Source: Hirudo medicinalis (taxonomy: Eukaryota > Annelida > Clitellata > Hirudinida > Hirudinidae). From it: a stretch of 64,000 bases of DNA. The notes under the pieces were generated by a model. That model did no database searches. It was not told the origin of the DNA and saw nothing but the letters and a program-made list of their open reading frames with translations. The stretch spans positions 274,003 to 338,002 of the forward strand of contig MPNW01000035.1 of the NCBI GenBank assembly GCA_011800805.1. Direction: 5' to 3'. Positions 17,373-40,034 of the stretch are shown here, in pieces. Within the stretch, counting starts at the first letter, position 1. Each line of letters starts with the position of its first letter. A program made the position numbers and the translations under genes.

Positions 17373-17454
17373 ATGATTTGGAGAAATATTGTTAAATATC
17401 GCGCTGGACTCGCATTAATTGTGCTGTCCCTTTTTACATGTCCGAGTTTCTGTG
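17373..17454 (+). other. Signal peptide of the giant collagen
   Basis: [12 protein letters not shown] is followed by a hydrophobic run ([11 protein letters not shown]) and a likely cleavage near SFC-D. This places the N-terminus in the secretory pathway, so with the C-terminal helix the protein has type I topology. Confidence 0.85.
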
Positions 17455-38400: not shown

Positions 38401-40034
38401 ACCGAGGAAGAACTGGAGCAACAGGAGTGCGTGGAAAAACGGGTGCTGCTGGATTCACCGGGCAACCAGGAATTCCTGGACTGCAAGGTGAAACGGGAGA
38501 TACAGGTGGCTCTGGTATGCCAGGCGTAAAAGGTCAAACTGGTTATATTGGTCATACCGGATCCACGGGAGATGCCGGAGCCACTGGACTTATGGGATTT
38601 CCGGGTAATACTGGTGGCCCTGGGCAACCAGGTGGTGATGGCGTCATGGGCGCAATAGGTGCTACAGGTTTTACTGGACTACGGGGTATTTCTGGTGCCA
38701 CCGGAAGTTTCGGTGCAACTGGAAACACCGGCGCATCTGGAATATCGGGTCGAACTGGAATGGTAGGATTTGCTGGCCTTATGGGTGGCACTGGTGGTAC
38801 TGGAGCAACGGGTTTAGTTGGTTCAGTAGGCAGCACAGGTCAAATAGGTGATACGGGATTAACAGGTCTTATTGGTGGTCCAGGCTTGGATTCCATTAAC
38901 AAAATTCTCAACGAACAAGGTTTCTATACCTACTTTCATCAAATTATCCTTTATATTTTAACCAAACGTTCCGTTGATTGTAGCCGTGCGAGATATGTGC
39001 GCAAGACTAAATTGCGACCAACGATGTGAAGTTACTCCTGTATATTGGGCAAATGGCATCATGGACTATCAGCCTTACTGTGTTTGTAATTTGTCGTTCA
39101 TGAAAGTACGAGTTGCCGGAGACTTCAAGTGCGCAGGTAGACTGAAACGGCATTTATCAAATTCTAAAAATTGTGTGCACGAAATCTTTGGAATGTTTAC
39201 AGATTTGAATGAATGTAGCTACAACAACGGGTTTTGCGAGCAAGTATGCAATGACATGCCGAATGGTTATTCCTGTTCCTGTAGATCAGGTTTTACTCTC
39301 GACGAAAACAAAAGAAGTTGCTCACCCTCAGGTAGATTTTTTTTACGTAGGCTAAACCATCATCTAAAGGTTAATTCTAAAATATCAACATTTCTCAGCT
39401 AATGTGAACGTCATTTTTGACTATACCTCGATAAACTGCTCTATGCTCAACGGTGGATGTGCTCACATATGCGACAGTGGACGTGTGGGACAGAGGGACA
39501 AGTGCGGCTGTTGGCCGGGATATAGTTTAGCGAACAATTCGCGCAATTGTTTGGGTAAGTACATTATTTCAATTATTTAAATATGTATTCCATGCAAAAA
39601 TGAATGCAAAAAAATATATTTTTATTTAATCTATAGACATAAACGAGTGCTTGAACAAAAGAATATGCCCGAATGGCACAATCTGCCTTAACACGTTGGG
39701 AAGTTACGTTTGCATCGTAGTCAGACTTTTAAACGAAGGTGAGTAAAATAAAAAATAATTGCTTTACAATTAATTGCCAAACAACTTACTAATTAATTTA
39801 GGCCCAGCCCCTTTGATGCAGAGTATTAACGATATATCCGAAAAGCTACCAGCAATCAACAACTCGCTCCTCCAAGCTTCAGAAACAACACATAACCTCT
39901 CAAAATACTACTATATCCTCATCGCTCTCGCTATATTAGTTAGCATGGCAATGATCGCAGTAGCGGCTCTGACCCACAGAAAGTGGAACAGAGATAACGC
40001 CAAAGACGAGGAGTTTGCGGACAAACACGAATGA
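17373..40034 (+). CDS. Giant transmembrane collagen (5,672 residues predicted)
   Basis: Thirty exons join without a frame break. Exons 1-4 (17373-17463, 18157-18183, 18290-18597, 18673-18889) encode a signal peptide and an N-terminal domain. Exons 5-25 encode the Gly-X-Y region. Exons 26-30 (38984-39136, 39203-39331, 39399-39554, 39637-39738, 39802-40034) encode four EGF-like modules, a juxtamembrane segment, one transmembrane helix and a basic/acidic tail ending DKHE. The start is the ATG opening MIWRNIVKY, followed by a hydrophobic signal core. Three such chains should trimerise into an extracellular rod held at the cell surface. The likely role is a cuticle or surface matrix fibre, by analogy with annelid cuticle collagens (inference). 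The intron phases, signal peptide and C-terminal anchor all agree, so I regard this as a single real gene. A missed small exon in the larger introns cannot be excluded. Confidence 0.88.
17863..18047 (+). mobile_element. SINE family B copy in collagen intron 1
   Basis: The fullest copy. The head GGCCGGATGGGTTGCGTT leads to GGCGGTAATGGCAACAGTCG, then box B-like GTTCGAAACCC and the AAAAAGCGCCTCTGA block, ending near CATTTGCATTTA. It lies in the sense orientation within the 693-bp first intron. Confidence 0.75.
18157..18889 (+). other. N-terminal non-collagenous domain of the giant collagen
   Basis: About 180 residues over exons 2-4 precede the triple helix. Beta-strand-like stretches are [39 protein letters not shown] and [10 protein letters not shown]. 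There is one NxT site and one Cys. The pattern (LQIWRP, then a GDxIGW turn, then SFDY) resembles an extracellular beta-sandwich I have seen in unnamed invertebrate secreted proteins. I cannot name a Pfam family. The exon 3/4 junction is the only phase-0 intron in the gene. The domain may nucleate or cap the trimer (inference). Confidence 0.5.
29341..29391 (+). mobile_element. 5' fragment of SINE family B in a collagen intron
   Basis: Fifty bases from TTGGCCGAATGGGCTGCG to GGCAACAGTCGTA match the head of the 17863 copy, then similarity stops. It lies in the 956-bp intron between exons 19 and 20. Confidence 0.75.
36745..37260 (+). mobile_element. LINE 3' fragment in a collagen intron (R2/NeSL-like C-terminus)
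   Basis: A plus-strand frame carries [19 protein letters not shown] followed by [11 protein letters not shown] and a stop. This matches the last domain of R2/NeSL-type LINE proteins, where a KY..D motif precedes PxEVGARG. The remainder is 3' UTR-like, GC-richer than the flanks. It sits in the 1.3-kb intron before exon 25. Confidence 0.55.
37319..37645. repeat. 107-bp direct duplication around a single N
   Basis: 37384-37490 and 37492-37598 are identical by eye and are separated by the window's only ambiguous base, N at 37491. Degenerate flanking pieces of the same unit occur at about 37319-37383 and 37599-37645, so the LINE-associated sequence may be a short tandem array. Confidence 0.85.
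37646..37720 (+). mobile_element. LINE-associated 3' sequence shared with 60116-60155
   Basis: The core CAGGGACATCCGGCTGATCA, followed by a CCGGATGCGG-type end, matches with a few changes a segment near 60118-60152. This suggests both belong to one retrotransposon family or its SINE partner. Confidence 0.5.
38984..39738 (+). other. Four EGF-like modules, one per exon
   Basis: Exons 26, 27 and 28 each encode a six-Cys EGF module. Exon 29 encodes a shortened one with four Cys. Modules 2 and 4 begin DLNEC and DINEC, the calcium-binding EGF consensus, and lie right after splice sites. Every module is bounded by phase-1 introns, the usual arrangement for shuffled EGF domains. They link the triple helix to the membrane anchor. 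Confidence 0.9.
39802..40034 (+). other. Juxtamembrane segment, transmembrane helix and cytoplasmic tail
   Basis: The last exon gives a heptad-like stretch with regularly spaced I and L ([19 protein letters not shown]), which could help trimerisation. A 20-residue hydrophobic helix ([20 protein letters not shown]), a basic stop-transfer HRKW, and a 15-residue charged tail without an obvious sorting motif follow. Confidence 0.85.

Follow-up and report, generated by a model that had tools for sequence, protein, structure and literature searches.

A giant annelid collagen gene that very probably encodes one chain of a register-locked ABC heterotrimer

We analysed a 64,000-nt stretch of DNA, referred to here as the window, and the genome around it, and our results lead us to consider it highly likely that a gene in this window encodes one chain of a membrane-anchored giant annelid collagen and that this chain would combine with those encoded on contigs C457 and C155/C996 into an ABC heterotrimer of about 1.48 µm. 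Giant annelid collagens as such are already known in print (PMC12403961).

When both strands were scanned, 25 Gly-X-Y runs of at least 4 triplets were found on the plus strand between 18969 and 38891, amounting to 1,742 triplets if codons running past splice sites are included, while the minus strand of the entire window holds a single run of 4 triplets. Joining the runs at splice sites yields 30 exons in one frame, from an ATG at 17373 to a stop at 40034 (Table 1), and reproduces exactly the 5,672 residues of the original prediction. GT-AG boundaries flank 28 of the 29 introns, the one after exon 7 being GC-AG, and 28 of 29 are in phase 1, with phase 0 confined to the exon 3/4 intron. The helix is built of blocks of 13, 24, 33, 33 and 1,621 triplets, with [15 protein letters not shown] and FL as the gaps between them; about 1,700 triplets had been predicted, and we count 1,724, of which 1,621 are uninterrupted. 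Since each residue of a collagen helix contributes a rise of 0.286 nm, 1,724 triplets correspond to about 1.48 µm, in good agreement with the 1.5 µm proposed earlier, and both a full-length paralogue and the charge pairing along the helix described below are in line with this length. The gene had also been held to be complete from signal peptide to membrane anchor, a view supported by the full-length paralogue C457 and by the register-specific charge pairing.

Table 1. Coordinates of the collagen gene and its parts in the window
Feature	Position	Strand	Basis
Complete gene, 30 exons, 5,672 aa	17373..40034	+	Splice model, single open frame
Exon 1: start codon and signal-peptide-like segment	17373..17463	+	Translation
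Exon 2, 27 nt	18157..18183	+	Splice sites alone
Exons 3-4: N-terminal domain, also in C457 and C155; phase 0 intron 18598-18672	18290..18889	+	Splicing, comparisons
Exons 5-6: start of helix, broken briefly four times ([17 protein letters not shown])	18961..20202	+	Splice model
Exons 7-25: main helix, 1,600 unbroken triplets; inner introns all phase 1, through a Gly codon	20382..38919	+	Splice model
Exons 26-29: tail rich in cysteine, carrying FXa_inhibition, cEGF and EGF_CA domains (EGF-type)	38984..39738	+	Pfam; tail shared by C457 and C996
Exon 30: stalk (hydrophobics in a heptad-like array), span across the membrane (39915-39971), inner tail of 20 residues, stop codon	39802..40034	+	Translation, hydropathy
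Single N between identical 107-nt copies (37384-37490 and 37492-37598)	37491	.	Inside exon 24/25 intron (36658-37956)

The N at 37491 is the only one in the window and leaves the coding sequence untouched; because identical 107-nt copies flank it, the site looks like two overlapping contigs that were joined without being merged. Apart from these copies, the only near-identical stretch among the best 25 of 52 self-matches is one of 60 nt, shared at 90% identity by two of the gene's introns (17864-17923 and 29341-29400) and probably a short interspersed repeat. A similar reading (GGNGDSRN...) was noticed upstream of the C561 collagen. Self-matches within helix exons, again among the best 25 of 52, reach only 67-77% identity over 57-142 nt, and tandem repeats within exons are short, with 1.9-4.3 copies of 9-27 nt units. 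We therefore rejected repeat assembly as the source of the length, as such weak self-similarity makes an artefact of this kind unlikely.

The encoded chain runs from the signal-peptide-like start through an N-domain of about 180 residues and a cysteine-free helix to a tail with 22 cysteines and EGF-type families, followed by the stalk and the span. Its helix is rich in threonine and poor in proline, as Y positions are 34.7% Thr and 11.9% Pro, and X positions 9.5% Pro. In the stalk, hydrophobic residues occupy 9 of 11 heptad a/d positions (best of 7 phases for each chain), the corresponding values being 9/11 for C457, 6/9 for C561 and 3/7 for C139; the 19-residue span has a mean hydropathy of 2.92, compared with 3.28, 2.83 and 2.51 in the same three chains. 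Between helix and span, the furin-type motif R-x-x-R is absent and KR occurs twice. The N-domain matched no Pfam family at E <=1 and nothing in the PDB better than E 1.5, none of 39 candidates in a large protein set reached E <=0.1, and the AlphaFold model of this domain (mean pLDDT 41.6) is too low in confidence for use. Fibrillar collagens are recognized by a C-terminal COLFI propeptide domain, and the window chain does not fit this class, as COLFI is not among the six families that Pfam reports at E <=1 in its last 271 residues. The vertebrate MACIT collagens XIII, XVII, XXIII and XXV share with it a collagen helix and a membrane span, but their N-terminus lies inside the cell and the span precedes the helix; the window chain, with a signal-peptide-like N end and a span after the helix at the C end, has the opposite topology.

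Besides the window gene, the 133-Mb assembly of 1,557 contigs contains further collagen clusters. A paralogue with the same layout, C457, has an N-domain 44% and 33% identical in its two exons, a helix start likewise interrupted four times, 1,725 triplets in total and the same cysteine-rich tail. Its helix region measures 5,188 residues against 5,189 in the window chain, after three splice sites (exon 5 end, exon 35 end and exon 36 start), partly guided by the window lengths, were set by hand in an automatic model that was 20 residues shorter; the last two of these sites affect the register over the 1,600 triplets, which then peaks exactly at +1. Over these triplets C457 has 30 introns, and 16 of the 18 in the window gene lie at the position of one of them; in 100,000 random draws, the number of coincidences never exceeded 4. 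The C155 gene, modelled automatically, has a matching N-domain (E 0.002) and helix exons that stay in step up to triplet 550, their lengths adding up to the same numbers of triplets (241+41 = 181+101; 38+11, the exon with a change of frame, = 49; 48; 45; 23+42 = 65; 61). The frame change, at C155:20182, splits one helix exon into 38 and 11 triplets in two frames and may be a sequencing error or a real defect. C996 carries a run of 184 triplets and the tail domains; when slid freely, this run settles at triplets 1417-1601, the end of the helix, with a score of 17 (next best 12, mean 4.1, standard deviation 2.1). C155 carries the 5' portion of a third chain, of which C996, judging from pairing and domains, is probably the 3' end.

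The strongest argument for a common helix comes from the charged residues. In triple helices, axial contacts run from the Y residue of triplet n to the X residue of triplet n+1 on the next strand, and lateral contacts lie within the same triplet, with axial Lys-Asp pairs described as especially strong (PMC12533406, PMC7824840, available text). Basic Y residues (Lys/Arg) of C457 face acidic X residues (Asp/Glu) of the window chain at an offset of +1 triplet in 58 of 119 cases, against a background of 8.4 obtained from offsets of 10-60 in either direction, and the best unrelated circular shift among 1,600 gives 18 pairs. From the window chain to C155 the peak is again at +1 (11/22; background 1.3), and from C155 back to C457 it is at +2 (14/33; background 2.5), the C155 comparisons covering 478 triplets after omission of its first part and of exon 5, which holds the frame change. 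The Lys-Asp counts among these axial pairs are 50/58, 6/11 and 12/14, respectively. Lateral peaks follow at 0, 0 and +1 for the same three steps (23, 5 and 10 pairs), and these are mostly formed with Glu (16/23, 4/5 and 7/10). Taking both kinds together, an acid of the window chain pairs with 75 of the 119 basic residues at Y in C457 (controls: mean 16.6, maximum 28), and 81 of the 115 acids at X in the window chain are matched by C457.

In a helix staggered by one residue per chain, the step from the trailing to the leading chain is one triplet longer than the others, and the observed +1, +1 and +2 agree with this. Axial Lys-Asp bridges in a triple helix with a one-residue stagger have these very offsets, and we conclude that the three chains very probably form a register-locked heterotrimer with the cyclic order C457, window chain, C155. 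Among 726 combinations of order and register, the best gives 83 pairs and the opposite cyclic order at most 20. C457 would very probably lead, the window chain take the middle and C155 trail, provided that homologous triplets are level, since cyclic relabelings combined with a shift of one triplet tie with this arrangement, and the word middle depends on that assumption.

For reverse directions and self-pairings, peaks at offsets from 0 to +2 do not exceed z 2.1, and over the wider range of -4 to +4 the highest value comes from C155 paired with its own sequence, at -3 (5 vs 1.5, z 3.1). Other combinations of positions produced sparse outliers: basic X of C155 to acidic Y of the window chain at 0 (3 vs 0.2, z 6.8), basic Y of C155 to acidic Y of C457 at 0 (4 vs 0.9, z 3.4) and basic X of C155 to acidic X of C457 at +3 (3 vs 0.6, z 3.0), with a few more at z 2-3. 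Pairing as a feature of any two giant collagens was considered and rejected, as the window chain, set against the longest run of C139 (907 triplets), reaches at best 14 and 16 pairs over all registers.

Residue identity led us to reject shared ancestry as the origin of the pairs. In register 0, the window chain agrees with C457 at 8.8% of X and 18.2% of Y positions, which is background when set against 8.0-9.8% and 16.5-19.9% in neighbouring registers, so inherited similarity does not account for the charge pairs. Of the residue classes tried for these two chains, Pro-Pro at X alone was also in excess at register 0 (23 vs 13.1, z 3.1), and neither the comparison of C155 with C457 or the window chain nor that of two C139/C561 segments gave a register with standout identity. 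If the window chain formed a homotrimer and its likeness to C457 and C155 reflected nothing but an old duplication, equal length and common introns would be expected all the same; its self-pairing at +1, however, is at background (11 vs 7.9), whereas pairs with C457 and C155 are strong and run in one direction, and together with the background identity at register 0 this makes a homotrimer hardly credible to us. We see here a clear case of a helix whose length is strictly constrained and whose sequence is little so beyond glycine and the paired charges.

The distribution of the pairs also bears on whether a helix of this length is made at all. Divided into 16 bins of 100 triplets, the helix has axial pairs with C457 in every bin. 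Axial or lateral pairs are present in 17 of 19 exons, and the two exons that lack them contain no acidic X. When each exon is judged separately, +1 is the single best register in 8 of the 19 and shares first place in 7; 2 give no information, and in exons 16 and 20 another register scores higher. Two or more genes at this locus, or mostly short splice forms, would mean that the 1.5-µm helix never exists, and the gene offers some room for this, as its inner helix exons consist of complete triplets in phase 1 and could be skipped without loss of frame, and as there is one assembly join, though in an intron. We nevertheless judge it very unlikely, because the same register with C457 is held from end to end and C457 itself is a full-length paralogue with identical layout; minor isoforms are possible. 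Dropping an exon from one chain would move all downstream pairs, which argues that the exons evolved as one chain. In this indirect way, through exons that stay in register with those of two further chains, the refuting conditions named with the original prediction, a split locus or the use of few exons, are answered.

As for assembly of the heterotrimer, the C-terminal spans would anchor the chains in the plasma membrane, where the stalk and the cysteine-rich domain may choose and align them, and zipping of the helix would then run outward from the membrane. Lys-Asp bridges, perhaps together with sugars on the abundant threonines at Y, might partly replace the role of proline, and the N-domains would come to lie about 1.5 µm from the anchor, in or on the body-wall matrix. 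A location in the cuticle is likely, a role there or in some other apical matrix being guessed from the phylum.

Annelid cuticle collagen has a helix of about 2.4 µm, which the window helix, at about 1.48 µm, does not attain. The genome is that of an annelid, with six matches to the haemoglobin-linker family PF16915 and none in 14 control genomes. Two genes for collagens of 2.5 µm were noticed elsewhere, at C139:24001-78000 and on C561; their automatic models contain 2,850 and 2,869 triplets, respectively, and both have VWA N-domains (E 4.3e-7 and 1.8e-8) and C-terminal spans. The original prediction was right as to a giant helix, and the source is an annelid, but the helix is well below the 2.4 µm quoted there, a size that this separate class fits better, and the chain is most likely one of three different ones rather than a molecule on its own. 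In annelid cuticle collagens, a very long helix is combined with globular domains, and its stability in Riftia has been tied to glycosylated threonine (PMC11766948, available text). The window chain resembles them in its very long helix, its many Y-position threonines and its end domains, namely, the N-domain and the cysteine-rich tail. Annelid collagens of up to 8,859 residues have been described in Alvinella, with similar ones in three Paralvinella species and Eisenia andrei (PMC12403961, available text). These likewise have thousands of residues and very long Gly-X-Y regions, but they are the longest of each species (7,719-8,859 residues where given) and of a size with C139 and C561, unlike the 5,672 residues found here; the available text says nothing of their chain composition, order or end domains. 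A classical cuticle collagen of about 2.4 µm that is shorter in this species would explain the annelid source and a very long, Thr-rich, Pro-poor helix with end domains (compare PMC11766948), but we consider this unlikely, as C139 and C561, with their triplet numbers and VWA-type N-domains, fit both the size and the Alvinella protein (PMC12403961) better. We regard these two, rather than the window gene, as the more promising candidates for the classical cuticle collagen.

As a partial replicate, pairing was assessed for C139 and C561 in those matched exons that have equal lengths, 39 in all with 1,738 triplets. From C561 to C139 there are peaks at +2 (49 vs 9.2) and +1 (53), from C139 to itself at +1 (33 vs 7.9) and from C139 to C561 at +1 (27 vs 9.8). 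With interrupted matched exons included, Lys-Asp accounts for 49 of 60 pairs from C561 to C139 at +2, and Arg takes part in 56 of the 63 at +1. A 2.5-µm helix of two C139 chains and one trailing C561 chain (A-A-B), with +1 as a lateral contact, would fit these values, less cleanly than the ABC arrangement does for the window chain; contrary to it, C561 has self-peaks of 22 and 19 against 11.2, and lateral pairs are absent for C139-C139 and C139-C561.

Different chains within one helix are also found in collagens VI and IX, whose chain order has been linked to coiled-coil regions (PMC12354898), and in designed ABC peptides, whose order has been linked to axial Lys-Asp bridges (PMC7824840, PMC12533406). 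The order proposed for the window chain comes from natural sequences over 1,600 triplets, while for collagen VI, as the available text has it, the source is a structure and for the peptides it is design (PMC12354898, PMC7824840, PMC12533406). No gene-based chain composition or register for annelid collagens was found in the literature searched, which leaves most subscription journals outside it. We put forward tentatively, and as something we would doubt rather than assert, that genomes record the quaternary structure of natural collagens, with composition, cyclic order and register readable from co-placed Lys-Asp pairs, and that the molecule is a cell-tethered, micrometre-scale ruler setting a layer of the body-wall matrix. 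If true, the other X and Y residues turned over while length was held almost to the residue. Sequence alone gives composition and cyclic order for two giant helices of one genome, with a large margin over controls in the case of ABC; every predicted pair is a testable crosslink, and the analysis points to specific genes to be sought in the body wall of annelids.

Several further observations concern the genome and the surroundings of the gene. A search for COX1 gave three matches on two contigs, and a pattern search for eukaryotic 18S found none. At C459:20763-22199, a bacterial-type COX1 has cytochrome-oxidase-like neighbours, and by eye we assigned the contig to a bacterium, either symbiont or contaminant. 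At C456:12202-13068, a 112-kb contig contains a broken mitochondrial-type COX1, probably leech-like, in which AGA is apparently read as Ser and which is either a nuclear copy or a misjoin. C456 also has one N between duplicated ends, as at 37491 in the window, and this pattern may be a habit of the assembly. A linker exon had no match in the PDB. In a destabilase exon, 51 of 63 residues are identical to PDB entry 8bbu, listed as a lysozyme and presumably the medicinal-leech destabilase; taken with the haemoglobin-linker matches, this makes the annelid source probably a leech. Downstream of the collagen gene, the open frame 43881-44618 (+) matches tektin (Pfam PF03148, E 4.5e-26), and ARAGORN and Rfam both place a tRNA-Glu (CTC) at 59886-59958 (+) of the window.
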